Of a DNA stretch of 20,891 nt, positions 1,979-18,993 are shown piece by piece. The translations under genes were made by a program, and so were the position numbers. Each line of letters begins with the position of its first letter. The first letter of the stretch is position 1. The stretch lies in the IMG/VR virus record IMGVR_UViG_3300025120_000704, positions 1-20,891 of that record; one strand, 5' to 3'. Source of the stretch: a virus. The notes under the pieces were generated by a model. That model made no database searches. It saw only the letters and a program-made list of their open reading frames with translations, and was not told the origin of the DNA.

Positions 1979-4900
1979 TTACCCCTGACCGCCAAATGAC
2001 TTCGGCATTCTTGAGAAAATTCTTATCTCTCTCCTGCGGAGGTTTCGCAGACGCTCGCCCTTCTCTTCCTTAGAAAGACCAGACTCTCGTATAAGATCCC
2101 TTTGAGCCCTAATAACCTTCAGAGCCTTGTCCACTTCCCTAACGTAGGATCTAGCCCTGAGTGCTTCAGAGTTTTCTCTCCGATACTCATTTACCCTTGA
2201 AGGGTCGCGAGTCTTTAATTTGTTAACCGTAGTAACTACGCGGGAAACTTCATCTTTCATACGGTAGTAATCTTCCGCATAGCCTCTGCCAAGGTTGTTA
2301 ACTAGGAACCGTCTAAAGAAAGGTTTTTGAGTAACAAGCTCCCCAACATTGTCAGTCAGACCAAAGGCTGGTCTATTAATAACAATGTCAGTAACCAAGT
2401 CTATGTAGTTCCAGCCTGACCCAATGTATCCCCTCATTAGGTTGTCTATCTCAAGAGGAGATATGCCAGCCCACTCGGGCAACAGATTGCCAGTAACCCT
2501 GGCGAGAGCCGAGGTGCTTCCCCTGTACTGCTGCGCCTGATCCATCTTCTCCATATAGAAGGGAACGATGGGCTGACCAGTGAAGAAGTTGTAGTTGGTT
2601 GTCTGCTCGACTAAGGGTCGAATAGCTTGAGGGAGCGGGTTAAACGCCAAGGTGTTAGCAATGGAGTGACGCACCGCTCGCAGTCCTTCACCAGTAGACT
2701 CTCCAAGTGCCAGACGAACTAGCTGTTCAGGAAGAACCTTGAGTAAGATGCCCGCCTCGAACGGAATAGGGATGGCTATGTACTTATTCGACTCTGTAGC
2801 AAGCGGACCAAGAGATATTAACCAGTTATCATTCCGCCGGTACTCCGCTTCGTTCTCGAAATCATCGTCGTCTATCCCGTGCATGAGGGAGTAGAGGACA
2901 CCAGCCCCGAATACCAAAGAAGCACGATGCATCAACGCTCTTTTTGCTTCATCAGGATCCACGCCCAGAGTATTCTCACCGTTGTATGCGTTTCGGTAAA
3001 GGACATCCATGCCCTGGATGCGGGCGTTAAGGAACGGGATCGTCGCAGTCAAGAACCTCAACATCGGAGAGTTGCCCCTCCGGCTGAAGTTCAAAACTTC
3101 CATTGCCTGAAACGCAGCCTGACCTGTGGCGTGAGTATCAGCGTACTGAGTTAGGGCTTCACCAGTGAGACCTTTTTCTTTACCTTGCTTTCTAAACCTA
3201 ATCAGCTCGCGATCATAAGTCCTCTCGAATACACGCTGACGAGCAGCCGACTCAGAGAAGTTTCCTACGTCGCCAAGGAGATCCCAAGTCTTAGTCAGGA
3301 TTTCAGGTACAGAACCAGCGGAAGAGATCTTGCGACTGAATCGTTTTTCAATACCTTTGAGATCCACATCTTTAAGCTCTAGCCCACCGACAGCCCCAGC
3401 TTTAGTTAGCCTTTGCTGAGTAGACTTTCCGCCCTCTTCTCTAGCCATAGTGTCATTGAAGATTCTTTTAATAGAATCAGTCGTTGCACTAATTGGATTA
3501 CTGCTGGTCCCGTGCGTTAGCCAACTCAGAATTGCATCGCGAGTAGTATTCGCAAGAAGGAAGTCAGGCATTCTAGTTACGCCCTCACGAAGGATCTTTG
3601 CTGGCAACGCAAACACCTTAGTGATCCCCTCAAGCGGACCCTGACCATCAAATGACCCAACCATCACATCGTGAAGGAAGGGATCTTTGACGTAGTACCT
3701 AACAGTCTTTCCATTCTCATAAACACTAACAGCACTATGCTCAACTTTGCGATCAGCGAAGTTAGTCTCATCGAGACGCCTTGCATCACCAGTCACAACC
3801 ATGTTCCTAAGGAACCTACTGGATGCCACGTTCTTCATACCCTCATTGATGAGAGCCATAGAGTTCTTGATGGTGGACTCAATCGGATCGTCGAGGTTGC
3901 CCTCATCGAAGCCTCGGTACTTCTTGGACGGGCGCTTGGGCAACATGCTGTTAAGCATCTTGAAGTCGTCTTCAGAGTTGGAGGCTCTCCTAAACTTCTC
4001 CCTAAGTTCACCCTCCATCTCGCCGGTTGTGTCTAGGTAGAACGGAACGTAGTCAGCATACTCAAGCCAAATTTCTGCTTGCTGATCGTTCAAGACGCCA
4101 GTCTTTACAGAGAAGTCAACCAAGGACTTATTCCACTTTTGAAGGTTCGCAAAGGCAATGGCAATCTCAGGATTGTCATAACCAATCTGTAGGGCGTTCT
4201 CCATGTTCTCGCCCTTGAACTGATTAGGAACAGGCTTGCCCTGCTTATCAAGCCTATAGGCACGAACAGCCCTACCGTAGGTGAAGAACTTCTCAACATT
4301 GGAGTTGTTCATCCTAGATATGGAACTCAGGATCTTTATAAGTCCACCACTCCCTTCATACACTCCAGGCTTTTCTACTCGCCTTCTAACAACTCCCTCC
4401 CCAGGGACAAAGATGAGCGCATCATCAGCATAGTTTTCAAGACCCATGTCATTCACCATGACCGTGCCGTCCATCCAGTCACCACCCTCAACAGTGGTGA
4501 AGTCGATGGTTCCGTACTTGAGCATTGCCTCAAGGAATGCACCAGCCCGATCCTTCAGCATCATCATGGCATATGCCGAAGTGGAAGCCATCTCAGGGAT
4601 AGTCAGGCCAAGCTTCCCTTCCTTGCGGAGCTTGGCTGCGGCAGCTTTCTCATTCCTGAAAATGGCATCATACTTATCGATGTACTGATAACGGAACTCT
4701 TCCCAGAATGGAATATCTTGATAGGTTCGGAATGCGCTTGTTATGGAGTCTAAGAAGGATTGCTTATTCCCCCTCTGCCTCATACCACCCGGACTCATGT
4801 AGGCATCAATTGCCTTCTGTTCTCCAGCAGAAGAAACAGCAGCAAGGCGACTAGCAGCACGCCTACCCGTAAATGGACTGCCGAAGGATTCATTGACATC

Positions 4901-7900
4901 GTAAAAGTCTCTGACCGATTCGGGCTCTGCGGCTATGCCTTCACGGGGGCCAGATGCGAAGCTGCCGTCCGGTGAATTCGCAGAGTAATTTTCATTAGCG
5001 TAAGCAGTAGTTACGGTGTAACGAGGGCCAGACAAATACTCAGTTGGGGTATCGGAATACTGCATAACAACAACAGCCGGTGAATCAAAACCTTCACCCT
5101 CCCAAAAGAATTTAACCTTCTTACCCCAAGGATCATAATGAGCAGAGATCTCCCCTGAAGAAAGATCTTTTGGTGAGTTCTTTAACTGCCGAAAGAAGCC
5201 CGAAAGAAACTCTTCAGAATTAGCGTATGGAGTATTTCTTTCAATGTCAGCATCATGCCTCTCGATGTGCCTCTCACCAAATAAATCAGCAGATCCAGCG
5301 GGAATAAACACCGGTATACCGACGCGCTTATTGCCCGTAAACTTGCCAACAGGAGATATGCTGACATTACCCCAGGTTAACGCTTTCAATATTTGATTAG
5401 GATTGCGTCCTTCTGGAACTGCGTTGTACGGAGGAAGGGTGGGCTTGTCCCTATCTACAGGATTCTTTTCACTATCCTGACGGGGGTCTCTCTTGAAAGA
5501 GGAACGGCTAAGCGACTGCCTGCCCTGCCCGCCGGTTACATCGGGCTCAGACTTTACTTCAGATAACTGATCCTTCTGGAAAGCAACAACCTCAGCAAGA
5601 TCACCATCCATGAACTGGACTATTCCATCGTAACCTTTGCTTCTAGCTCTAGACCTGATTTTGTTTCTGACATAACCATGCTCTTCGTACTCTCTTTCGA
5701 CAGACTCAAAAGCTTTATCAGGATCCATACCTAACTGGACAAGGGCTGCGATTGATGGATCCCTAAGCTCCAGGGAGGCCGAACTGTCCGTCTCGATGAT
5801 CAAGGGGTTTTGGATGTCAGCCTCTATCTCGATTACATTAGATCCATAAGTAGAAGCTCTATCCGTATCAGGCGTAAGGTATATCCCATTGCCTATAGAG
5901 CCCCCCTCATTGCCGGACCTTATCTTCCCCTTGACACTACTGTCTGTCCCGTGGAAAAGACGGATTCCTCGAATAGCACCAGGGTTAATAGAGCCAGACG
6001 GATCTGTAATATCCTGAGGAGAGATCCTAGACCTAGCAGCCCTGCCTGTAGTAGCCTCGGCTTGACCTTCGACTCCACCTTCTTCCGCATCAGTGGGCTG
6101 GTCAACTCCAGCTAGAAGAGATGCCAATTCAGCGGTCGGAGCAACGGCACCAGTTCTTTCGAGAGCCCTAACAGTAGAGGGCTGGAGAGTCTGATCCACA
6201 TACGCTGCCTTAGTGATGGAAGCAATAAGCCGTTTGTACTCATCCTGATGGCGGCGCTTCTTGTAGTAAGCATCACGCATCATGTCTCGCTCCAAGCGTT
6301 GCATGAAGGTGTCACCATAAAGAATCTGGAAGACTTCATCAGAAGATCGGAACCCAGCCCCTCGGAAAGCATTCCCGGTATTAACTATGGCTCGACCCAT
6401 CTTCTGAAAGATGTTCGCAGGCTTACCTGAGATGTTCTTCCTGTCGGCACCAAAGTCCTGAGCCATGAAGGCAATGGCTTCTTCGATGTAGTCATCCCTA
6501 ATCCAACCTTCTGCCTTGCCTTGCTTAGCGTAAAGTTGATCAACCAACTGCTGATAAGTAAAGTCAGACGGTAAAGCTTCAAGGTTATTAGCCTTTAAGT
6601 ATTCCCTGATCGATTCGGATGGGGCTGCATTGATCGCTGCAAGAACAGAAGGCTTTATCGGAGTGCGAGCAGCGGCACGCTTGAATACGTTGTACTCGCC
6701 TCTTGTAATCAGACCAGACCTAAGAGACCAATGAACAAGCTCATGGTCAGCAAGCCTGTTTGCCTGAGCAACTTTCTCTTCAAAAGATAAGTTTGGATTA
6801 CTAAGAGACGGGTCATCAAGGGCAATTCTAATGACACCAGCAACAGGATCATACTGAGCCCCATCATCACCATTGATCGTATCGACTAACTCAACCTTGA
6901 ATAAGTCGAGCCCCCTATCTTTCCCAAGGTACTTCTGAACCTCTTTCCCTAAATCCTCAGACGCGCTAGCCGCCTCAGCGGGGACATCTTCACTGATCGG
7001 GAAATTCTTCTCGGCAAAGGCAACCGGGTCTTCTCTGAGTTCAGCAAGATCCTTGGCACTAAGACCAAGACCTTCCTCAATAGAGCCATCTTCCGAGACT
7101 TGCCTACCGAAAGACTCGGCACCGCCAGAAGCCTTGTCTCTGAGTCTCTGGGCTTCCGCATTAGCCTCGGCTTCCGTGAGTATCCCGTCGTTCTTCTTTA
7201 CCGGGACACCCCTAGCCCTAGTCTTCTTCCCACTCTCTAGCCCGGATTCATACTCAACAACGCTGAAGATATCTTCCTTGCTTGTAACACCGCTTATATT
7301 CTTCTCGCCTTCTTTTTTGCGGCGTTCGATGGCCTGACGAGCCTCTGAAGGAGTCTTGTGGTAGGAGAGGATGCCACCATCCCTATCCTTGACTACCCAT
7401 TCCTTGCTCTTCTTGACTTCGTACTCATATTCGCTGACAAGTTCAGGCTCTCCCTTGGGGCCAAAGGCAGCAAGCTCAGGTCGAGTTACATTGGCAGCAA
7501 TGACACGCGAAACTTCCCTCACGGAAAGCTCAGGGATACCGACAGGGCCTCTTCCTCGTTCTCCGATAGCCTTGGCTTCTGCTAAATAATCCTTCCTTGC
7601 CTGATCAGCTTCTTTCTGAGTATCGAATGTCCCAAGGCGTTCTAGCCGCCCACCACCTCTCTTCACCTCAACAGCGTATTTCTTCTTCCGGGCCTTAGGC
7701 GTTCTCGGAACAACTATCCGACCAGAGCCATCGCCAGCGATGTCACCCCTGGCGACAGCCTCATCCAAAGCATACTGGTAGTATCGGTCATTCCTAGACC
7801 CAGTGATCTCCTTCCACTTCTCAAGGTCAGGGTAGTAGCCATTGTTCTCTAGTCTCGCGTACCGTAGTACGGCGTCGTAGTCACTCTGAGGAAGAATACT

Positions 7901-9865
7901 ATCGATATCATCATCAAGAGCAGTACCAGCAAGAGATTCCCTAAAACTCTGAGCAGCTTCAACATCGACACTCACTTTACCCCTACGAGCGCCGATGCCT
8001 TCCTTTGTCACTAACCCAAGGTCGTCCAACCTATTACGGTAAGAAGAAGCAATTTCAGAAAGCTCTTCGTCTGTCGCAAGACGTTGATCAACTCCAAGAA
8101 GATTCGTCTCCTCCAAGGCATTGAGTATGTTTTGGTCAGAGAGTTCCTTCTTATTACTATTAAGAATGGACTCCACGAGATTGAGAGCATCACCCTTGGA
8201 GGCAATGGCTAAACTAATCTCTGCCTCCTGCACAGGGAGTGCCGAGATGGCTTGGTAAACCTGCTCAAGCTCTTGGGGATTTAGATCATCCAGCCTCGCT
8301 TTGCCCACCAGTCTTCTGGTAAAGGAGTGGAACCCCATATCCCTAGACTTGATGTTGCGGGATTCAGCAGCTTGGTGAACATCCTCGGCGGTGCGGCCAG
8401 ACTCTGTTAAGGGAAGTACTTGCTCAAGGAACTGAGCGCGCTGCTCAACGGCTTGTTGCTCAAGCTTCAGAGCTTCTTCTTCCTCGGCCCTCTTTGCCGA
8501 ATGCTTCTGGATCTTAAGGATCTCAGTTCTGGCATTCTCAACTGCCATTGCTGCCTTCTTTTCCTTGGAGTCTTGGTACTTGGCATTGACCGAACCAACA
8601 CCACCAAAGAACATGGAAGGCCCGATTGCAGTTAGTGCAATCTGGATGTACTCGCGAGCAGCCTCTTCATTAGCAGGGCTGATCGGTTCACCAGCAGCAA
8701 GTCTTTCCAAAGCCTGCTGCCCAACTTCGGCAACCTCTTCCTCAGCCATTGTGGCAACAAAGCGACGAAGAGGAGTGAGGTTATCAATACTTTCAATCTG
8801 CTCTGCCAGAGTTCTCATGGCAGTTTTTTTACCAGAACTACTGAGTGTCTTACCTACGTTTCCTACTACGAGAGATCCACCAGCAAGGAGAACCATCATA
8901 GATTCGAGTGCGGTCTGGCCTCCAGCGATAGCTATCTGACCCAGGACATCGTAGTCCTCTTCAGTCAGTTCTTCTCCGCGCTCCTCAGATTCCTGTATGG
9001 ATCTTTGGAGATTGCTAGCGAGATAGTTAGTCGTCTGGGTTCCGGTGTAACCCAAAGTTCTTCCGACAGTTCTACCAATAGATGCAGCCTTATAAGCCTT
9101 GCTTGCACGGTTGGCAACATTGAAGGCACCAAGCCCCCTGCCGAGAACCGTCCCTACCCCGGTGCCCACAACAGCACCTACAGGGCCACCAAGCATCGCT
9201 CCAGCAACCGTTCCCATCCTGCCGAGGACAGCGCCACCAACCAGGGAGGGAGCCATGTAGCCAATGCTCTGACCAGTGGTCTCAGTGGCAAGCTCAAGCC
9301 ACTTGGCTGTGGCCGAGATCAGTCCCTCATCATCGTATGCCTTAGAGACATCCTCTAGAGTGGTGAGCTTTCCGGCACGCTCTGCCATCCGCTCATCAGC
9401 TTGCTTGACTCTAGCCTTGCCAGCCTCAAAAGCGTCACCGTCTCCAGTGACCCCACCATACAGAGCTTGCGCTCCACCGGGGATACCCTCGATGGAGCCC
9501 ATGAGCCCACTGTAAAGAGAGGAGAAGAAAGTCCCTTCTTCAGGAGCAGGAGCAGGAGGAGTGTATGCCTCAAATGAAGATGGGAACTGTTCTCTGGCTA
9601 ATCGACTCGCCTCTGCCCTACTAACACCAGCAGGAACATTCATCACAGAGTAGTCAGGTAACTGCAACTGGTAAGAGTTCTGAGGAATGTCCTCCTCAAC
9701 TTCTTCAGTTACAGTCTCTTCTACATCCATAGTCCCCGGTTGGAGAAAAGGAAACTCGGACAGAACAGCAGAGCCAGGATCCTGACCAGCGTCTATCGCC
9801 TGCCGCTCAAGTTCCTCAGCCCTTTTGCGTTGCGTCTCAGTCAGTGAAGTAAAGTCGAAAGACAA
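1979..9865 (-). CDS. Giant polyvalent virion protein: membrane segments, zincin, ADP-ribosyltransferase, putative BECR nuclease, LPD38 (2628 aa)
   Basis: This gene fills 38% of the window. Order of regions: Gln/Glu-rich N-terminus with 'VPAGVSRAEASRLAREQFP' (about 77-95); glycine-zipper hydrophobic segments (about 200-250, 309-339, 406-427); charged coiled coil (about 432-485); three beta-alpha modules (about 726-912); zincin protease (HELVH 1041-1045, E1128/E1129); ADP-ribosyltransferase (H1305, Y1329, E1425); a nuclease-like region (H1533, H1537, TAY at 1620-1622); and a C-terminal LPD38-type module (about 1700-2500). Large polyvalent proteins of phages and conjugative elements combine such effector domains and are thought to enter the host with DNA. 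The start is TTG at 9865: AGGGG lies 6 nt upstream and the next Met (about residue 46) would discard a conserved-looking segment. It follows the 606-aa ejection protein by 9 nt. I saw no frameshift. The domain calls are motif-based. Confidence 0.85.
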   Translation of the reverse strand: MSFDFTSLTETQRKRAEELERQAIDAGQDPGSAVLSEFPFLQPGTMDVEETVTEEVEEDIPQNSYQLQLPDYSVMNVPAGVSRAEASRLAREQFPSSFEAYTPPAPAPEEGTFFSSLYSGLMGSIEGIPGGAQALYGGVTGDGDAFEAGKARVKQADERMAERAGKLTTLEDVSKAYDDEGLISATAKWLELATETTGQSIGYMAPSLVGGAVLGRMGTVAGAMLGGPVGAVVGTGVGTVLGRGLGAFNVANRASKAYKAASIGRTVGRTLGYTGTQTTNYLASNLQRSIQESEERGEELTEEDYDVLGQIAIAGGQTALESMMVLLAGGSLVVGNVGKTLSSSGKKTAMRTLAEQIESIDNLTPLRRFVATMAEEEVAEVGQQALERLAAGEPISPANEEAAREYIQIALTAIGPSMFFGGVGSVNAKYQDSKEKKAAMAVENARTEILKIQKHSAKRAEEEEALKLEQQAVEQRAQFLEQVLPLTESGRTAEDVHQAAESRNIKSRDMGFHSFTRRLVGKARLDDLNPQELEQVYQAISALPVQEAEISLAIASKGDALNLVESILNSNKKELSDQNILNALEETNLLGVDQRLATDEELSEIASSYRNRLDDLGLVTKEGIGARRGKVSVDVEAAQSFRESLAGTALDDDIDSILPQSDYDAVLRYARLENNGYYPDLEKWKEITGSRNDRYYQYALDEAVARGDIAGDGSGRIVVPRTPKARKKKYAVEVKRGGGRLERLGTFDTQKEADQARKDYLAEAKAIGERGRGPVGIPELSVREVSRVIAANVTRPELAAFGPKGEPELVSEYEYEVKKSKEWVVKDRDGGILSYHKTPSEARQAIERRKKEGEKNISGVTSKEDIFSVVEYESGLESGKKTRARGVPVKKNDGILTEAEANAEAQRLRDKASGGAESFGRQVSEDGSIEEGLGLSAKDLAELREDPVAFAEKNFPISEDVPAEAASASEDLGKEVQKYLGKDRGLDLFKVELVDTINGDDGAQYDPVAGVIRIALDDPSLSNPNLSFEEKVAQANRLADHELVHWSLRSGLITRGEYNVFKRAAARTPIKPSVLAAINAAPSESIREYLKANNLEALPSDFTYQQLVDQLYAKQGKAEGWIRDDYIEEAIAFMAQDFGADRKNISGKPANIFQKMGRAIVNTGNAFRGAGFRSSDEVFQILYGDTFMQRLERDMMRDAYYKKRRHQDEYKRLIASITKAAYVDQTLQPSTVRALERTGAVAPTAELASLLAGVDQPTDAEEGGVEGQAEATTGRAARSRISPQDITDPSGSINPGAIRGIRLFHGTDSSVKGKIRSGNEGGSIGNGIYLTPDTDRASTYGSNVIEIEADIQNPLIIETDSSASLELRDPSIAALVQLGMDPDKAFESVEREYEEHGYVRNKIRSRARSKGYDGIVQFMDGDLAEVVAFQKDQLSEVKSEPDVTGGQGRQSLSRSSFKRDPRQDSEKNPVDRDKPTLPPYNAVPEGRNPNQILKALTWGNVSISPVGKFTGNKRVGIPVFIPAGSADLFGERHIERHDADIERNTPYANSEEFLSGFFRQLKNSPKDLSSGEISAHYDPWGKKVKFFWEGEGFDSPAVVVMQYSDTPTEYLSGPRYTVTTAYANENYSANSPDGSFASGPREGIAAEPESVRDFYDVNESFGSPFTGRRAASRLAAVSSAGEQKAIDAYMSPGGMRQRGNKQSFLDSITSAFRTYQDIPFWEEFRYQYIDKYDAIFRNEKAAAAKLRKEGKLGLTIPEMASTSAYAMMMLKDRAGAFLEAMLKYGTIDFTTVEGGDWMDGTVMVNDMGLENYADDALIFVPGEGVVRRRVEKPGVYEGSGGLIKILSSISRMNNSNVEKFFTYGRAVRAYRLDKQGKPVPNQFKGENMENALQIGYDNPEIAIAFANLQKWNKSLVDFSVKTGVLNDQQAEIWLEYADYVPFYLDTTGEMEGELREKFRRASNSEDDFKMLNSMLPKRPSKKYRGFDEGNLDDPIESTIKNSMALINEGMKNVASSRFLRNMVVTGDARRLDETNFADRKVEHSAVSVYENGKTVRYYVKDPFLHDVMVGSFDGQGPLEGITKVFALPAKILREGVTRMPDFLLANTTRDAILSWLTHGTSSNPISATTDSIKRIFNDTMAREEGGKSTQQRLTKAGAVGGLELKDVDLKGIEKRFSRKISSAGSVPEILTKTWDLLGDVGNFSESAARQRVFERTYDRELIRFRKQGKEKGLTGEALTQYADTHATGQAAFQAMEVLNFSRRGNSPMLRFLTATIPFLNARIQGMDVLYRNAYNGENTLGVDPDEAKRALMHRASLVFGAGVLYSLMHGIDDDDFENEAEYRRNDNWLISLGPLATESNKYIAIPIPFEAGILLKVLPEQLVRLALGESTGEGLRAVRHSIANTLAFNPLPQAIRPLVEQTTNYNFFTGQPIVPFYMEKMDQAQQYRGSTSALARVTGNLLPEWAGISPLEIDNLMRGYIGSGWNYIDLVTDIVINRPAFGLTDNVGELVTQKPFFRRFLVNNLGRGYAEDYYRMKDEVSRVVTTVNKLKTRDPSRVNEYRRENSEALRARSYVREVDKALKVIRAQRDLIRESGLSKEEKGERLRNLRRREIRIFSRMPKSFGGQG
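1982..1986 (-). promoter_or_regulatory. Shine-Dalgarno AGGGG that supports the TTG start at 1975
   Basis: Minus-strand AGGGG sits inside the last codons of the giant gene and is followed by six bases (including its TAA) and TTG. Motif, spacing and overlap with the previous stop repeat those seen at 9872-9876. Confidence 0.7.
2366..3628 (-). other. LPD38-type C-terminal module of the polyvalent protein (residues ~2080-2500)
   Basis: The region has 'MPDFLLANTTRDAILSWLTHG' (split), then 'FLTATIPFLNARIQGMDVLYR' and a hydrophobic helix 'LVFGAGVLYSLMHGIDDDDFE', the combination I associate with the large polyvalent-protein-associated domain 38 of phages. The preceding 400 residues (from about 1700, 'SFLDSITSAFRTYQDIPFW') probably belong to the same structural unit. 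It is present near the C-terminus of many very large phage virion proteins. Confidence 0.6.
4976..5383 (-). other. Putative BECR-fold nuclease (PBECR-like) region of the polyvalent protein (residues ~1495-1630)
   Basis: The segment has 'VGIPVFIPAGS' followed by 'FGERHIERHDADI' (H1533, H1537), then strands 'VKFFWEGEGFDSPAVVVMQY' and 'PRYTVTTAYAN' (about 1617-1624). A conserved 'F(G)..HI..(R/K)H' helix and a terminal 'Y.VTAY' strand are hallmarks of barnase/EndoU/ColicinE5/RelE-like toxin nucleases in phage polyvalent proteins. I cannot see the full set of active-site residues, so this is tentative; it might be another small alpha/beta domain. Confidence 0.45.
5546..5974 (-). other. ADP-ribosyltransferase domain of the polyvalent protein (residues ~1298-1440)
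   Basis: Motifs in order: 'IRLFHGTDSS' (H1305), 'GSIGNGIYLTPDTDRASTYG' (Y1329), a strand 'VIEIEADIQNPLI', 'SKGYDGIVQF', then 'DLAEVVAFQKDQL' (E1425). H, Y and E at these places match the ART fold (NAD+-binding H and Y, catalytic E), and the 'HGT…G.GIY.T…YDGIV…EVVAF' frame matches the ART-PolyVal type. It would transfer ADP-ribose to a host macromolecule early in infection. The target is unknown. Confidence 0.75.
6296..6913 (-). other. Zincin metallopeptidase domain of the polyvalent protein (residues ~985-1190)
   Basis: The domain has 'GVIRIALDD' (strand), 'ANRLADHELVHWSLRSGLI' with the HExxH zinc motif at residues 1041-1045 and the catalytic Glu at 1042, and 'YIEEAIAFMAQDF' (E1128/E1129), a candidate third ligand. 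The pattern 'DHE.VH..…G..T..E' and 'EEAIA' is that of the MPTase-PolyVal type of zincins found in large phage polyvalent proteins. It could process the polyprotein itself or cleave host proteins. Confidence 0.7.
7130..7690 (-). other. Three tandem degenerate beta-alpha modules in the polyvalent protein (residues ~726-912)
   Basis: Each module has two or three strands, then a short 'T..EA' helix: 'YAVEVKRGGGRLERLGTFDT-QKEADQA' (first), 'YEYEVKKSKEWVV…YHKTPSEARQA' (second), and 'FSVVEYESG…ILTEAEANAEA' (third). The repeat layout resembles small nucleic-acid- or peptidoglycan-binding beta-alpha folds, but I cannot assign a family. Confidence 0.5.
8576..9298 (-). other. Glycine-zipper / hydrophobic N-terminal region of the polyvalent protein (residues ~190-430)
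   Basis: The first hydrophobic stretch is 'VGGAVLGRMGTVAGAMLGG' then 'PVGAVVGTGVGTVLGRGLG', with Gly every third or fourth residue, typical of helices that pack tightly in membranes. Two more hydrophobic stretches follow ('LESMMVLLAGGSLVVGNVG' and 'IQIALTAIGPSMFFGGVGS'). Such a region could let the protein cross or line a channel in the host inner membrane during ejection. Confidence 0.65.
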
Positions 9866-9871
9866 GTCTAT

Positions 9872-9876
9872 CCCCT
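9872..9876 (-). promoter_or_regulatory. Shine-Dalgarno AGGGG that supports a TTG start for the giant gene
   Basis: Minus-strand AGGGG, six bases, then TTG at 9865. The site overlaps the TAG stop (9877-9875) of the preceding gene, so termination and initiation are probably coupled. There is no ATG nearby in frame. Confidence 0.75.
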
Positions 9877-12746: not shown

Positions 12747-13193
12747 CTAAACCCTCATAGATATGACGATATGCGTCACATCAAATTTATTTAAACCTTT
12801 TTCTTGCCTGTCTTCTGAACTCTTAACTAAATCAATCATGTTGAACTTACCAACAGCACGGTCTATTGAGACCTGGGCTGTTATCGCACTACACCCTCTC
12901 TCTCGGGCATAAGGCTTGAGGAGATCAACATCTTCCTGATAGCGGAACATCTGATCACCCGAACACATACAAATAAACATCTCCCTTTGTCCGTCCGGGT
13001 ACTCCATCACATCAGTGAGCATCACTACGGTGTAGAATCCTTGCTTTTTGAATAACCAAAGCTCAAGCATCCCATCGTAGACTTTCCTAACAACATCCTC
13101 TTCAGGTGGAGAATGATCGTCCGTCTTCAGTGCTTTATGAAAGTAATGAAGATCTTCATCTTCTAATTGATGAGGGAGAATTTTTGAAAGCAT
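12747..13193 (-). CDS. GNAT-like virion-associated protein, T7 gp13-type (148 aa)
   Basis: The order of motifs is 'VYDGMLELWLF', 'VVMLTDVMEYPDGQREMFICMCSGDQ' (split here between strands) and 'LLKPYARERGCSAITAQVSIDRAVGKF'. It follows the small acetyltransferase-fold proteins found in T7-like and marine podoviruses, with the pattern 'G…LW…VT.V..YP.G…I…G' and then 'A.E.GC..I'. The usual 'GR.GW' near the end is replaced by 'SIDRAVGKF', so catalysis is doubtful. In T7 the equivalent protein (gp13) is needed for virion morphogenesis. The gene sits between two ejection-type genes, which fits. The ATG at 13193 has AGAGG 4 nt upstream. I saw no close match to a Gly-rich acetyl-CoA loop. A different alpha/beta fold is possible. 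Confidence 0.5.
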   Translation of the reverse strand: MLSKILPHQLEDEDLHYFHKALKTDDHSPPEEDVVRKVYDGMLELWLFKKQGFYTVVMLTDVMEYPDGQREMFICMCSGDQMFRYQEDVDLLKPYARERGCSAITAQVSIDRAVGKFNMIDLVKSSEDRQEKGLNKFDVTHIVISMRV

Positions 13194-13200
13194 CGTACCT

Positions 13201-14403
13201 CTACACGGGCATCATCATGGATGGGTCAATTGCCGGAGGTTGCTGAGTAGACCCGTTCCTTAGACCTCGGACTTTTCCAATCAAGTCGCGCAGCTCACGC
13301 GCACCTGATTCTGTGTCACCGTTACCCAATCCAGAGACAACGTCTGCGGGAACGATGTATTCACCCTCAGACAAAGCAACCTGTTCCATCCCGTCAATAT
13401 TCCCCGGTATAGAGTCACTCATTCCGTCGCTACGGAACTCATCCATACCCGACTCGATGCTGCGGATCACATGTTCTTGAAGGCTCATTAGTTCGTCTTC
13501 GCCAAAGGCTTCTACAAATCTTTCAACAGCATCTTCGGGATTCGGGTGGTTACCCTCAAGAGCAGCTTTCGCTTCCATGACAATTTTTAGCATTTCAGAT
13601 TCTGTGCCCGAAGGTGACTCCATAGCCTCCTCCTCCATCATCATCGACATCTCTTCTACACGGGGGTCCATCATCATCGACATCTCTTCTACACGGGGGT
13701 CCATCATCTCGCCCCCATCTCGGTACCCTTTTATCAGCCCGCCATTCTGGTATCGAGGGACAAGTCCACCCCCAGCCATGCCAATAGACATTCCAGAATT
13801 GGCTTTCCCGCCACCTCCTCCGAGCCTTCCTCTGGACGACTGAGTCATCGGAGTTCGGAACATGCCATACCCGCTGTAAGCAGCGTCCTGCATCATTTGA
13901 TTCAAATGGCGATTCGACGACTGAGACATCGGAGGCCGAGACATGCCATAGCTCATTCCTGAGGAACCTAACCCCTCATCCATCTGGCGAAGCTGATCCA
14001 TCAGAGACCCTCTCGCATCCATCATTTGCTGGCGTTGATTATTTCGATTAGCAATGGACTGATCAGACTCAATCATACTCGCCTGACCACCAGGGTTAGA
14101 TTTCATATACTCGCCGAAGTCAGAAGTAGTGATGACACCATCATTGTTAAAGTCGGAGAATGCATCGTAATTAGCATCCCCCTTCTTCGAGTTAAGGGAT
14201 GCCTGAACAAATGACTGACCAGTATTAGCCATGGGCGCACCTGTTCCAATTTGAGCGGCTTGGGGCTGAGGAGCGACGGGGCTTCCGTAACCAGAGGATG
14301 GCATTCCAAATGTGCCAAACCCACCCTGGCCTCCGGTGTTGAACCCAGGACGAAATGCCTGCGTCACGCTTCTGCTAAATTGATTGTCTACATTACCACC
14401 CAT
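13201..14403 (-). CDS. Probable internal virion protein with EF-hand-like loop and 'LSEGEYIVPADVVSGLGNG' motif (400 aa)
   Basis: The protein is low-complexity and rich in Met, Gly, Ser and Gln. Residues 84-95 form a textbook calcium loop (D-F-N-N-D-G-V-I-T-T-S-D; ligands D84, N86, D88, T92, D95), as in EF-hands and dockerins. Residues about 150-200 hold a duplicated 'YGM.R.PM.QSS' element. Around 206-230 is 'GGLVPRYQNGGLIKGYRDGG', followed by two copies of an 11-residue acidic Met-rich repeat. The C-terminus has 'LSEGEYIVPADVVSGLGNG', which I recall from marine phage proteins encoded near ejection genes. The gene has the strongest ribosome site in the window (AAGGAG, 6 nt before the ATG), suggesting high expression. 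A capsid-internal or tail role is inferred from its neighbours. Confidence 0.6.
   Translation of the reverse strand: MGGNVDNQFSRSVTQAFRPGFNTGGQGGFGTFGMPSSGYGSPVAPQPQAAQIGTGAPMANTGQSFVQASLNSKKGDANYDAFSDFNNDGVITTSDFGEYMKSNPGGQASMIESDQSIANRNNQRQQMMDARGSLMDQLRQMDEGLGSSGMSYGMSRPPMSQSSNRHLNQMMQDAAYSGYGMFRTPMTQSSRGRLGGGGGKANSGMSIGMAGGGLVPRYQNGGLIKGYRDGGEMMDPRVEEMSMMMDPRVEEMSMMMEEEAMESPSGTESEMLKIVMEAKAALEGNHPNPEDAVERFVEAFGEDELMSLQEHVIRSIESGMDEFRSDGMSDSIPGNIDGMEQVALSEGEYIVPADVVSGLGNGDTESGARELRDLIGKVRGLRNGSTQQPPAIDPSMMMPV
13634..13709 (-). repeat. 33-bp in-frame tandem repeat (2.3 copies), Met/Glu-rich
   Basis: The blocks 13634-13666 and 13667-13699 are identical, and ten further bases (13700-13709) begin a third copy. 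Each unit encodes 11 residues, M-D-P-R-V-E-E-M-S-M-M in circular permutation, so the expansion keeps the frame. The product is acidic and methionine-rich. Confidence 0.9.
13835..13951 (-). repeat. Diverged 36-bp direct repeat spaced 81 bp
   Basis: The segments starting at 13835 and 13916 agree at about 31 of 36 bases (gacgactgag.catcggag…acatgccata). The 81-base offset is 27 codons, so the duplicated peptide 'YGM.R.PM.QSS' stays in frame. It looks like an older duplication than the neighbouring 33-bp repeat. Confidence 0.75.
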
Positions 14404-14405
14404 CG

Positions 14406-15656
14406 TTATCTCCTTCTTAGGGAAGCTAGACCGCCCTGGTTAAATGGCAGCGTCACGCCAAATCTGTGCATTCCGCTTGGGTTAACGCTTGGCCTAATCT
14501 TAATCTGAACAGGCTCTTCGCTTAAAGGATTGTACTTCCCTGGTAAAGTAGGATCAGTAATCCTCTTAGCTAGTTCCGCTAGTCGAACAACTCGTTGTAT
14601 TGGAGTCTCAGGTTGAGCGGATCGTTTTTTAACTTCACCACCGTTATTAGCAGCCCAACTAATGCCAGGAGAAGAAGACCAAGTCTTATCGTAAGGCCCC
14701 TCATATCCAGCCAAGTAATCTTCTTCATCGTACTCAGACGGAAGCAGTGCTTCTGTCGCCATGACTGGGGCTATGTAATTAAGAGGATTCCCTGCATACT
14801 CCTTGAGAGCCTCACGACTAACAGAATCCGCCAGCCCTTCCTGGGTAAACTCGCTAGCAACCTGATCAATAAAACCAGGGCCTTCAGCAGGGGGAGTGTT
14901 AGTCGGCGCACCTGACATCTCTCCGGCGTTAACGGTCAGGGCCTCCCCGGAAAATTCGGCGAAACCGTCTGGCGCAACTCCGCTTGCTGATGCTCCAGTT
15001 ATATCTGCCGCTGTCTGACCAAAAGGCATGACTCCAGGCCCTCTCGGTGCTGACACAATCATTTCTTCTACTCCAGCCTCTGCCGCTTCTTTAAAAGCAG
15101 TGTCCATGGCTGCCTGTTCTGATGTCTTTCCCACTACCTCGGTTGTTCCTGTCTTTACTGCCTCGGCTGTTCCTGTCTTTACTGCCTCGGCTGTTCCTGT
15201 CTTTACTGCCTCGGCTGTTCCTGTCTTTACTGCCTCGGCTGCTCCTGTCTCAAGGGCACCCTGCACACTAGCATCTACAAGCGTATTCGCGGATGCATCA
15301 AGAGCGGCTTGAGTGCCAGCTTGAGCGCCTGACCCCATGGCAGCACCTAAGCCACCAGTCAATGCTCCAGTCGCCATACCAATACCAGCACCCTGAAGAA
15401 TCCCTTGCCACAAGGGAATCCCCTTCTGCTCTGCGGTTATGCCGCCGGAAGTAGCTCCTAGGATCGCCCCGATAATAAGTGACGTTATGATACCGGCTTC
15501 AGGCTGACCGGTCTCGGGATTAGTCGGAAGCTCACCAGAGGGAAGCAATGATCCCAGCCCCGCAAGCTCTGCTTCATTAACATGAAGTATGCGGGTATCT
15601 CCGAAGCGACCAGCCTCGGAAAGATCCTTTGCCATCTTCTCGTATTTTTTATTCAT
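14406..15656 (-). CDS. Probable ejection / internal virion protein with glycine zipper (416 aa)
   Basis: Residues about 15-60 carry 'AGRFGDTRILHVNEAELAGLGS' and 'PTNPETGQPEA', a pattern ('GR.GDT.L.HV…E…L', 'NP.TG.PE') seen in many marine phage virion proteins. Residues about 54-112 form a glycine-zipper hydrophobic stretch (IITSLIIGAILGATSGG, GAGIGMATGALTGGLGAAMG), suited to inserting into a membrane. It is followed by an Ala-rich region with a tandem 8-residue repeat (T-A-E-A-V-K-T-G) and a long low-complexity stretch. The C-terminus ends 'FNQGGLASLRRR', a GG motif shared with two neighbouring proteins. The ATG at 15656 has AGGA 6 nt upstream. The likely role is in the channel that carries DNA and proteins through the host envelope. 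The exact function is unknown. Confidence 0.6.
   Translation of the reverse strand: MNKKYEKMAKDLSEAGRFGDTRILHVNEAELAGLGSLLPSGELPTNPETGQPEAGIITSLIIGAILGATSGGITAEQKGIPLWQGILQGAGIGMATGALTGGLGAAMGSGAQAGTQAALDASANTLVDASVQGALETGAAEAVKTGTAEAVKTGTAEAVKTGTAEAVKTGTTEVVGKTSEQAAMDTAFKEAAEAGVEEMIVSAPRGPGVMPFGQTAADITGASASGVAPDGFAEFSGEALTVNAGEMSGAPTNTPPAEGPGFIDQVASEFTQEGLADSVSREALKEYAGNPLNYIAPVMATEALLPSEYDEEDYLAGYEGPYDKTWSSSPGISWAANNGGEVKKRSAQPETPIQRVVRLAELAKRITDPTLPGKYNPLSEEPVQIKIRPSVNPSGMHRFGVTLPFNQGGLASLRRR
14410..14415 (-). promoter_or_regulatory. Strong Shine-Dalgarno (AAGGAG) for the 400-aa gene
   Basis: On the minus strand AAGGAG lies 6 nt before the ATG at 14403, inside the end of the upstream gene. 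It is the closest match to the canonical site in this window. Confidence 0.85.
15148..15243 (-). repeat. 24-bp in-frame tandem repeat, four copies
   Basis: The unit 5'-cctgtctttactgcctcggc-3' plus 'tgtt' (plus strand) occurs at 15148, 15172, 15196 and 15220. The first three copies are identical and the fourth differs by one base at 15242. A more diverged copy precedes it at 15124-15147. On the coding strand each unit encodes A-E-A-V-K-T-G-T. Nucleotide identity, including third positions, points to recent expansion by strand slippage. There are no spacers, so it is not a CRISPR array. Confidence 0.95.
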
Positions 15657-16075: not shown

Positions 16076-16606
16076 TCAGTGCAAAGCCCTTGCTATCTCG
16101 ACCCATACCACTCCTGACCTGATAAGAGTTACGTTGTCGTGTGCGTCATCAATCACAACAGTGCTAGTCGTAAGCTTTATAGAATTCGCCCCAGCCCCAG
16201 TCTCCTTTAACGTAACATCAGTGTCATCGCTGAAGGCCATAAGAGTAATGACATCGCCATCACTACCGCCAATGATGTACTCCAAGTCTGTAGTGACAGA
16301 TGGCTGCAATTTCACAAGACGATGACCTGTGTAATGAATTGATTTCGCAGTAGTGTCAACCACCGCCGTTACCCCAGGGCCAAATCTCAATCCGAGTGAA
16401 AGTGGGAAATTTCCTGAATACGGTCGGAGTAGGAGAGACTCGCGCTTCGACGCAGGAGAGGCTGCCCCTTCGTTGGCACTCTCTGATGAGTTAACCGCAG
16501 ATGAAATCTCAAGCAGGTATGTCTCAAGGTTTCTTCTAAACTGAGACTCTTCATCCTGCGAATAGTTATTCCCAGGCAAGCCAATGGGTCTGAAGTTTAC
16601 GCCCAT
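16076..16606 (-). CDS. Small virion structural protein, beta-rich (176 aa, function unknown)
   Basis: I do not recognise a named family. The first 60 residues are polar and probably helical (QDEESQFRRNLETYLLEISSAV). The remainder is beta-rich, ending in 'IDDAHDNVTLIRSGVVWVEIARAL', a strand-turn-strand end common in small phage head or tail spike-like proteins. A helical anchor followed by a beta head would fit an attached fibre or a connector. Its ATG overlaps the nozzle gene stop by one base (TGATG). Its place between the nozzle gene and another small beta protein implies a virion role, but this is inferred from context only. Confidence 0.6.
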   Translation of the reverse strand: MGVNFRPIGLPGNNYSQDEESQFRRNLETYLLEISSAVNSSESANEGAASPASKRESLLLRPYSGNFPLSLGLRFGPGVTAVVDTTAKSIHYTGHRLVKLQPSVTTDLEYIIGGSDGDVITLMAFSDDTDVTLKETGAGANSIKLTTSTVVIDDAHDNVTLIRSGVVWVEIARALH

Positions 16607-18993
16607 CAGCGCATCCCATCCGGCTGAGTGTCAATCCTAACATCGCCTAGACGCCACTGAGCAGTTGAGTTAGAACCTGAAACCTTGATAGCTGCGGCCC
16701 TAGCTCTTCCCCTTACCTGCATACTCTGCACATACGAATTCGAGTCACTCCCAGCACCTACCGTGTACTGCCTAATAACAGTGGGGTTGGTTCCGGTGGG
16801 ACCAGCGAAGTTGGCAGTTACTGAAGCTTTCTCCGAGGCGCTCTCACCCGGATAGTACTTGCCATTAATTGATATAGTTACAGCACTACTGCCAGAAGAA
16901 TTAAACATCAAAAGATCAGGCATAATCCGGCTGTAGAAGGAAAGCTCATTCCCGTCGGATATCTCCACATCGCCACTCTCAACGAAAGACTGCAAAGCAC
17001 TTCCTTGGGCAGCGGTGCCGAAGTCGTGCTTCATCACAGCAGTCTTCTGGACATTCGCCCCGGCTCTACTCCCAACATTCGATGGGTTGGAATCGTACTG
17101 ATATATGTACGCTGCCATCGGAACATCAGTGATTACCGCATCCCTCCAAGCAGTCCTGTTGTAAACAGAAGACTGAAGAGCTGCATCATTGTCTAAAGCG
17201 GACATGTCGAAGGAGCCGATAGTCCAAGTCTGATTTTCGTAGTTGAAGCAGACGAAACGATTAGCCTCAAAGGATCCGTTACTCGTCCCAGACTTGGACG
17301 GGTAGAACCAGAAGATCTCTGAGAACTTAGAATCAACCGCAGCAAAAGACTTGTTAGCCTGATCCATGTTTATGTCATCGTAGACATAATCCGCGACGGG
17401 GCATTCTAATGGCCGGACAGCACCACCGCCGTACACATAGAACCCGTCATTGCCCATGAAGAAGACTGAACTGGCTGCATCAACAGCCGTCTTATGGGAG
17501 AGGATCTCTACATTCTGAGAGATCAACGAGAATGAGAAGATATCGGGAGGACCGATAAATCTCATCGAGTACACGGCAGCATCAGTGAAGATCACCACCT
17601 CATCCTTGGTGGAGACTGCACCGATGATTCGGCTCCCCACTCTCAGGACTTGACCACCAGCAGTATTGGTCGGAGTTGGCGTCCAGTCGAATGGGTTATT
17701 CTGATCAGACCACCGGACCAGCAAGGAGTTCTGGGTCGTCCCGCCTATGTCGTTAGTACCGAAGCCTACGCAGCTACCGTCTCTCTTGCTGATAAGAAAA
17801 CTGTCCACAATAGTGGGGGGATCAGATGCACCCGTGAAGTTCGTCGAGTTAATCTCTTTAACAACATCACCAAGGCTGAACGTACCGCCGGAACCAGGGA
17901 TGCCATTCACGGTACTGGCGCTGGTGTCCCAGTAATAAAGTGGGCTACCAGAGTTTGCGAATATAATATCTTCACCGTAGTTATCGATGTAGACCCTTCG
18001 AGCTTCTCCAGTCAGGACAGGAGAAGCAGAGGCTTCGCCCCACCCCCTGCCTGTCGTAAACTTACCATTGGCACCCCCGCTACTACCGGGACTTCCACCT
18101 GATGTCGTGGGTCCAGTGAAAGTGAATGAAGTAGACGATGCATGGGTAAGTACTGTGAACTCACTCCCATTCAAATCAGCAGTATTGACACCATTTACTG
18201 TACCAGTCAAACCACTAAAGCGAACAATGTCACTCACTGCTGGCAAATCCGAAGCAGCGCAAGTCGCAGTTAGAGTAGCCGTGCTACTCCCGGTGGTGAT
18301 GTATGGGCTTGCGACATCAGCAATGGAAGTAGTCCCACCCCATATACCAGTGCCCCAGCCCATGCCTACCGTCTGGGCGTTTGATCCAGTCTGAGTTCTG
18401 TAGTGATACCCAACAGAACCACCCTCATACGCTCCAGAAGTAGTAGCAGCATTTACCGTTGACCCTGTAGTCTCATCAACTATCTGAATATAGAATGTAT
18501 CTAGATCGGGAACTTCAGTGATTTGAAACCCTGTTACTTGAGTCAGAATCGAGTCAGTGATCGCTGAGTCTATAGAGGAACCTATGGATACAAAATTGAT
18601 CCAATCGTCTACGGACCTTCCATGACCAACGATCTTTACTTCAACAAAAGGAGAACCGTCAGTCGTCTTGAAAGGATTGCTAACTGTCGATGGAGAAGCT
18701 GTGTCTGAAGGCACAATCGCAGTGATGTCGTAAGGAACGCCACCGACAATGACGTAGTACTTCCAGTTCGTGCCGACAAAAACATAGTTGTTGCCTGAGT
18801 AGTCACGGGAGCTAAAGCAATCCCTACCGATACCCTCAAGGGTATACATGTCGTCCCTGGCCCAGCCGCCTATTGACTCTGCAAAGCCACCCCGGAAGCG
18901 GATGTTGTTGCAGTCATACCAGCGCGCACCAGCAGCATACTCTGTCGAGTTCCGGCTAATCCCAGCAGGTATCTGGAGCTTAGTCAGGGGCAT
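16606..18993 (-). CDS. Tail nozzle / tail tubular protein B-like structural protein (795 aa)
   Basis: The N-terminus (MPLTKLQIPAGISRNSTEY, then 'GARWYDCNNIRFRGGFAESIGGW') is the signature I associate with the large beta-rich distal tail protein of many podoviruses, the functional counterpart of T7 gp12 and P22 gp10 (tail nozzle, beta-propeller). The rest has many short beta strands with GXG turns and blade-like stretches such as 'VVIFTDAAVYSMRFIGPP' and 'SSVFFMGNDGFYVYGGG'. Length is close to T7 gp12 (about 794 aa, from memory). The gene begins 1 nt after the fibre stop with a GGAAG ribosome site, and its TGA stop shares one base with the next ATG, so translation is probably coupled. A role as a generic structural protein cannot be excluded. 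Confidence 0.65.
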   Translation of the reverse strand: MPLTKLQIPAGISRNSTEYAAGARWYDCNNIRFRGGFAESIGGWARDDMYTLEGIGRDCFSSRDYSGNNYVFVGTNWKYYVIVGGVPYDITAIVPSDTASPSTVSNPFKTTDGSPFVEVKIVGHGRSVDDWINFVSIGSSIDSAITDSILTQVTGFQITEVPDLDTFYIQIVDETTGSTVNAATTSGAYEGGSVGYHYRTQTGSNAQTVGMGWGTGIWGGTTSIADVASPYITTGSSTATLTATCAASDLPAVSDIVRFSGLTGTVNGVNTADLNGSEFTVLTHASSTSFTFTGPTTSGGSPGSSGGANGKFTTGRGWGEASASPVLTGEARRVYIDNYGEDIIFANSGSPLYYWDTSASTVNGIPGSGGTFSLGDVVKEINSTNFTGASDPPTIVDSFLISKRDGSCVGFGTNDIGGTTQNSLLVRWSDQNNPFDWTPTPTNTAGGQVLRVGSRIIGAVSTKDEVVIFTDAAVYSMRFIGPPDIFSFSLISQNVEILSHKTAVDAASSVFFMGNDGFYVYGGGAVRPLECPVADYVYDDINMDQANKSFAAVDSKFSEIFWFYPSKSGTSNGSFEANRFVCFNYENQTWTIGSFDMSALDNDAALQSSVYNRTAWRDAVITDVPMAAYIYQYDSNPSNVGSRAGANVQKTAVMKHDFGTAAQGSALQSFVESGDVEISDGNELSFYSRIMPDLLMFNSSGSSAVTISINGKYYPGESASEKASVTANFAGPTGTNPTVIRQYTVGAGSDSNSYVQSMQVRGRARAAAIKVSGSNSTAQWRLGDVRIDTQPDGMR

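Follow-up and report, generated by a model that had tools for sequence, protein, structure and literature searches.

A giant protein of 2628 amino acids from an uncultured tailed phage carries a cargo between its zincin-like and BECR-like domains that, judged by comparison of aligned sequences, is exchanged among near-identical viruses, with breakpoints at short linkers. It is encoded in a 20,891-base virus record, here termed the window. A preliminary description had placed a zincin, an ADP-ribosyltransferase (ART) and a possible BECR nuclease in this one protein, and suggested that their order might be a new architecture. Proteins of this architectural kind were already known, and the main new result is the swappable slot together with its conserved linkers.

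Frame and domains of the protein

The frame proposed earlier stands. The 2628 codons at 1979–9865 are uninterrupted by a stop and lie on the minus strand, which had not been named, and all the motifs listed in the preliminary description (HELVH, the ART H-Y-E triad, HI..RH and the threonine region) are present within it. The TTG start is conserved together with its Shine-Dalgarno sequence in two relatives, L001 and L003. The gene ends a run of minus-strand genes, and a stabilization-type structural protein of 795 amino acids in the same run places it among virion genes. Some phage matches of this neighbor are annotated 'phage stabilization protein', and many come from LUZ24-type podoviruses. 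The protein combines disparate domains with a class-specific LPD, as polyvalent proteins do: LPD38 and ART-PolyVal both score above cut-off, and a zincin-like domain accompanies them. These properties support its assignment as a polyvalent protein within a podovirus-type structural gene cluster. The features are as follows, all on the minus strand.

16606–18993, minus: neighboring virion structural protein of the P22/LUZ24 'stabilization protein' type (phrog_3287, E = 5e-67)
9871–9876, minus: Shine-Dalgarno sequence AGGGGA, 5 nt ahead of the TTG start, identical in L001 and L003
1979–9865, minus: polyvalent protein gene, 2628 aa, TTG start, a single open frame
9152–9208, minus: marginal Gly-rich hydrophobic stretch, residues 220–238 (mean hydropathy 1.42)
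8855–8911, minus: marginal hydrophobic stretch, residues 319–337 (mean hydropathy 1.56)
7088–7111, minus: degenerate linker FGRQVSED, residues 919–926, before the zincin; a weak case from sequence comparison, opposite VGRAAVDR of L006
6296–6979, minus: zincin-like domain, residues 963–1190 (alignment, AF2 model, Foldseek, hhalign to N4-type MPTases)
6731–6745, minus: HELVH, residues 1041–1045; HExxH invariant in 8 of 8 aligned sequences
6467–6484, minus: EEAIAF, residues 1128–1133, predicted third zinc ligand; E-E-A-x-A invariant in 8 of 8
6026–6046, minus: linker 1, GRAARSR, residues 1274–1280, joint of zincin and cargo; DNA homology to L001 stops directly after it, at residue 1281
5525–6025, minus: exchangeable cargo slot, residues 1281–1447; ART here, GNAT in L001, about 910 aa in L003
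5555–5965, minus: ART domain, residues 1301–1437 (PF18760 ART-PolyVal, E = 1.6e-9 with the slot alone, 6.6e-8 with the whole protein)
5504–5524, minus: linker 2, GRQSLSR, residues 1448–1454, joint of cargo and BECR-like domain; homology to L001 is back soon after, at about 1468
4946–5383, minus: BECR-like domain, residues 1495–1640 (alignment, AF2 model, BFVD Foldseek match)
4847–4867, minus: linker 3, GRRAASR, residues 1667–1673, joint of the BECR-like domain and the C-terminal core
1982–4846, minus: C-terminal core, residues 1674–2628, where conservation within the family is highest (phrog_9854, E = 3e-40)
2387–2869, minus: LPD38 domain, residues 2333–2493 (PF18857, E = 2.1e-28)

Two side observations concern the surroundings. 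The product of the downstream gene on the same strand (625–1734) is of the phage exonuclease type (phrog_284, E = 2.8e-34). At about 12760–15390, genes of 400 and 416 aa match L001 only piecewise at 68–82% identity, with about 88–95% in both neighboring stretches; by this comparison the block is another variable block of the structural region.

The two ends of the protein form a conserved frame. The C-terminal LPD38 module was confirmed by Pfam. The 'membrane-type helices' of the preliminary description were its weakest element: both hydrophobic stretches are indeed N-terminal, but there are just two and they are marginal. Three relatives (L006, L019 and L036) have an SLT lytic transglycosylase domain at the N-terminus, and none was found in the window protein or L033.

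As had been claimed, there is good support for a zincin in the HELVH region. In an alignment of eight sequences, with identity to the window ranging from 82 down to 23%, E-E-A-x-A follows HExxH by ∼80–110 residues. Since both elements are invariant, HELVH is more than a chance motif. The AF2 model has a helix, three strands, the HExxH helix and a later EE helix, with pLDDT of 86–94 around the HExxH helix. This is the textbook order, and that given for polyvalent MPTases by Iyer et al. 2017 (PMC5512222), i.e. an N-terminal helix, three strands and two helices; model helices 74–95 (HExxH) and 169–184 (Glu) agree with it in both ligands and core order. The top Foldseek matches are mostly zincins (abylysin, selecase, jannalysin, IrrE/PprI and aminopeptidases), none of them significant, but the region has no match in Pfam, PHROGs or PDB sequences. 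Using hhalign against eight N4-type MPTases, the strand before HExxH and the HExxH helix align weakly, with a probability of 54% over 32 columns. As a separate observation, the zincin core (window 6446–6985, residues 961–1140) has 69–89% DNA identity to L001 where its surroundings mostly have 94–100%. It counts among the two stretches that differ most between window and L001, and is distinct from the cargo slot.

The claimed ART was likewise borne out, and the ART-PolyVal match that had been predicted was found by Pfam at 39.1 bits against a curated cut-off of 31.2. The motifs are FHGTDS (1304–1309, with H1305), GNGIYL (1325–1330, with the Tyr) and AEVVAF (1424–1429, with E1425). The H-Y-acidic site of ART-PolyVal is therefore present; the published triad has Asp, and the best-placed residue here is Glu (E1425). 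The domain can be aligned with the ART of Roseovarius Plymouth podovirus 1 (RPP1; blastp E = 0.027).

The third enzyme had been put forward as a possible BECR nuclease, and we regard residues 1495–1640 as probably a BECR-like nuclease on the basis of alignment and model. The sequence FGERHIERH occurs at 1529–1537 and TVTTAYAN at 1617–1624. The AF2 model has a helix (or helices) bearing HIERH and then four strands, in keeping with the published BECR order of His in the N-terminal helix and Thr/Ser in strand 4 (PMC5512222). The helix His and the last-strand Thr/Ser are retained in 8 of 9 aligned sequences. In the ninth, L036 (residues 2005–2098), both are lost together (MGKRFLDSS and WSVVGLR), as if that domain had been inactivated. 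A BFVD Foldseek search lists as its third match a protein containing a MuF C-terminal domain (probability 0.97, E = 0.009), but the other searches were negative. No fold in the PDB matched significantly, and the anticipated PBECR match was not obtained: all nine members are unmatched by the PBECR family profiles, and the region has no Pfam, PHROG or PDB profile match. Moreover, hhalign to the MuF-C of phage Mu, taken as a BECR yardstick, gave nothing. For want of a PBECR or MuF-C profile match we do not file the region as a PBECR member. These blank searches, together with its location in the conserved frame instead of the swapped cargo, would suit a structural or adaptor domain rather than a nuclease, a reading that deserves serious thought while being the less probable one. 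The retention of His and Thr/Ser and their joint loss in L036 is the pattern of a catalytic pair, and along with the fold order and the MuF-C-containing match this argues for the nuclease.

The exchangeable slot

The relatives are few, comprising nine contigs beside the window, some of them near-duplicates and all derived from metagenomes; none was found in bacterial genomes. The clearest comparison is with L001 (IMG/VR, a 44.6 kb contig), which is 92% identical to the window protein over residues 1–1280 and 98% over 1448–2628, with an unrelated middle. By blastn the DNA homology ends at residue 1281 and resumes at about 1468. The slot of the window protein, which holds the ART, is 167 residues long, and that of L001 has about 310 with a GNAT acetyltransferase (PF13508, 28.0 bits for a cut-off of 27; PF00583, 23.4 bits for a cut-off of 20.7). 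In L003 and L002 the flanks are 78–82% identical to the window, and about 910 unrelated residues fill the slot. This 910-aa cargo (L003 residues 1272–2188, L003:3867–6617) has no meaningful Pfam match. It includes a second HExxH (HEVAHG, 2038) and the sequence GRRSVSR at 1871, which may divide it.

A second swap involves L032 and L033, which belong to a distant lineage. Their DNA is 96–97% identical on either side of a segment that is unrelated between them (1.5 versus 0.9 kb), and the upstream breakpoint lies inside the second copy of the linker sequence SGRERASL, at L033 nt 5714. The L032 segment is similar to the L036 slot, in which there are an FHGT motif and further ART-like features but no Pfam match. 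Within the first cargo of L032 (13900–14546) the frame is broken, in the VVGHEGRHRAMAL region that is ParB-like by eye; it is intact in L033, and the break is either a sequencing error or real decay. Counting by linkers, the slot holds three modules in L006 (3513 aa) and two in L035. The second L006 cargo (L006:7874–9178) is weakly DUF7178-like (E = 0.05), and the third (L006:9200–9973) matches phrog_2563, of unknown function (E = 6e-7).

Wherever the N-terminal part of a member is complete, the zincin lies immediately before the slot. The slot differences are very unlikely to be assembly chimeras, despite the metagenomic origin of all the contigs and the frameshift within the slot of L032, since two slot types each recur in separately numbered metagenomes (L002 and L003 are 99.9% identical through the slot, and L033 and L034 are 99.6% identical in DNA) and the frames run on through the joints in the window, L001, L003, L006 and L033–L036.

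Linkers at the module joints

The case for the linkers comes from the relatives and the breakpoints, and not from the window protein's own copies. In L006 the sequence [RE]RVGRAAxxRG is found four times: ahead of the zincin, at two positions between cargos and ahead of the BECR-like domain; abbreviated forms stand at two further joints. REAAGLPxDPxRSRAS is present three times in L035, and SGRERASL twice each in L033 and L034. The linker repeat scores for L006, L033 and L035 are 59, 51 and 60 respectively, versus maxima of 41, 39 and 40 in shuffled sequences. As repeats the window linkers are not significant, scoring 35 against a shuffle mean of 35.3. The motif GRx[AS]xxR gives p of about 0.002 in the window by shuffling, but was picked after seeing the sequence. 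With a PSSM of the L006 linkers, positions 1273 and 1666 of the window rank first and second of about 2600, with scores that are within the shuffle range.

No repeated linker is clear in L019 or L036. The motif [FLA]SR was not found in the LPD38 proteins L009–L014. None of the six LPD38 proteins that lack this zincin has linker repeats above shuffles, a comparison of small numbers in which L009 has two other HExxH sequences. In IMG/VR RVGRAAxxRGE has three matches on the L006 contig itself; on other contigs it occurs as single matches and never as a repeat, and no such match was in an ORF of more than 784 aa.

The codons of the repeated linkers bear on how they are maintained. One pair of L006 copies is 90% identical in DNA, and so was recently duplicated. 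The other pairs share 8–9 residues and 2–4 codons, about what is expected from codon use alone for these residues. The L035 copies share 15–18 residues and 10–11 codons. Retention of the peptide while the codons diverge suggests that, besides duplication, there is selection on the linker peptide, for example as protease sites. The linkers have low predicted confidence in the AF2 model, and are therefore probably flexible.

Proposed module release and related systems

We consider it rather likely that this is an ejection-type polyvalent protein of a podovirus with swappable cargo, whose modules are freed by cutting of the linkers, most probably by the zincin. The conserved frame, made up of the N-terminal region and the large LPD38 C-terminal core, would place the protein in the virion and carry the modules into the host cell together with the DNA. 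Between the parts of the frame would sit the zincin, the slot with its exchangeable cargo (the ART here) and the probable RNase of BECR-like type. Each module would be bounded by short linkers, where recombination exchanges the cargos. After injection, or on packaging, the linkers would be cut, and the ART and BECR-like enzyme would leave the frame to act on host proteins and RNA. The SLT domain of L006, L019 and L036, the weak hydrophobic stretches and the LPD38 core ending the structural genes together suggest an effector-bearing ejection protein. Release of modules by cutting is suggested by the place of the zincin next to the slot and by the conservation of the joint peptides. The sequences themselves show the frame, the zincin signature, the ART, the slot exchange, the breakpoints at linkers and, in relatives, linkers conserved at the peptide level, whereas the location in the virion, injection, cleavage and the activities are inferred.

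Linker cleavage by the zincin may be the natural mechanism, and is the candidate we favor from these sequences. The earlier suggestion that the zincin might release the two downstream effectors gains some indirect support from the conserved joint linkers, which would be concrete candidate sites. Iyer et al. 2017 (PMC5512222) proposed that zincins, the commonest domain of polyvalent proteins, process them. In the publications consulted we found no description of the cleavage sites of polyvalent-protein zincins. The N4 virion RNA polymerase has a zincin yet is packaged uncut (PMC5512222), which counts against cutting. More tentatively, the linkers could be the recognition sites of the zincin itself, so that an injected self-cutting polyprotein frees an interchangeable effector cartridge in the host. 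Under that proposal linker and zincin would co-evolve, and this would explain why the linkers are lineage-specific.

A possible but doubtful alternative is that the linkers are recombination seams or flexible spacers, that the protein acts uncut, and that the zincin is itself an anti-host effector. The cargo swaps do break at the linkers, the 90% identical pair of L006 points to duplication, the linkers are probably flexible, and the N4 precedent fits an uncut protein. The divergence of the zincin between window and L001 also favors its attacking a host protein, although roles in module release and against a host protein can both be true. However, most linker copies keep their peptide despite silent drift, which neither seams nor spacers would need. 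It is less likely again that the linkers are cut by a host protease or a separate virion protease and not by the zincin in cis. Their Arg-rich sequences would suit trypsin-like or host proteases, and the processing enzyme of P1 DdrB is merely predicted (Iyer 2017, PMC5512222), but the constant position of the zincin just before the slot and the lack of linker repeats in the six LPD38 proteins without it (small numbers, as above) argue against a separate protease.

Release of exchangeable modules, our preferred reading, can be compared with several known systems. T7 gp16-type ejection proteins have a lytic transglycosylase N-terminus and a position ending the structural genes. The present family resembles them in layout, with the SLT N-terminus of three relatives, weak hydrophobic stretches and a very long conserved C-terminus; the window protein, in contrast, is without an SLT domain and bears effectors. 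Polymorphic toxins such as CDI and Rhs carry their variable toxin at the C-terminus and direct it against competitors, and some have a processing peptidase. A fixed delivery part with interchangeable toxic domains is common to both, but the present family has an internal slot, and its carrier is probably a virion protein.

The closest likeness is to the phage-type polyvalent proteins of Iyer, Burroughs, Anand, de Souza and Aravind 2017 (PMC5512222). These are also giant multi-domain proteins adjoining virion genes, with LPD38, ART-PolyVal, zincin and BECR-like domains, lysozyme-type domains in some, and GNAT also listed. Since that study already describes MPTase fused to ART, PBECR1 and lysozyme, and ART is just one of several slot cargos, the order zincin-ART-BECR is ruled out as a new architecture. 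What differs here is a defined slot swapped between near-identical viruses, with lineage-specific linkers repeated at the joints; the word 'linker' is absent from PMC5512222. The jhp1044-type proteins of Helicobacter phages, which are PBECR mosaics (PMC5512222), likewise have effector domains extensively shuffled within a single orthologous protein, but several PBECR domains are duplicated and rearranged there, whereas here the BECR-like domain belongs to the fixed frame and it is the preceding slot that varies. The N4-like virion RNA polymerases with MPTase (plus ART in Roseovarius Plymouth podovirus 1) share a zincin in a giant virion protein and an alignable ART; they differ in that no RNA polymerase was found in the window protein and the zincin match is weak.

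Specific candidate sites for the zincin, open to a test in vitro, are provided by the repeated linkers of L006, L033 and L035, whose peptides are conserved. If the self-cutting proposal is true, a domain arriving between two linker copies of its lineage would be released in the host. The slot offers a route to unknown phage effectors, in that whatever relatives carry in the interval from the zincin to the BECR-like domain is a candidate for host takeover or counter-defence.
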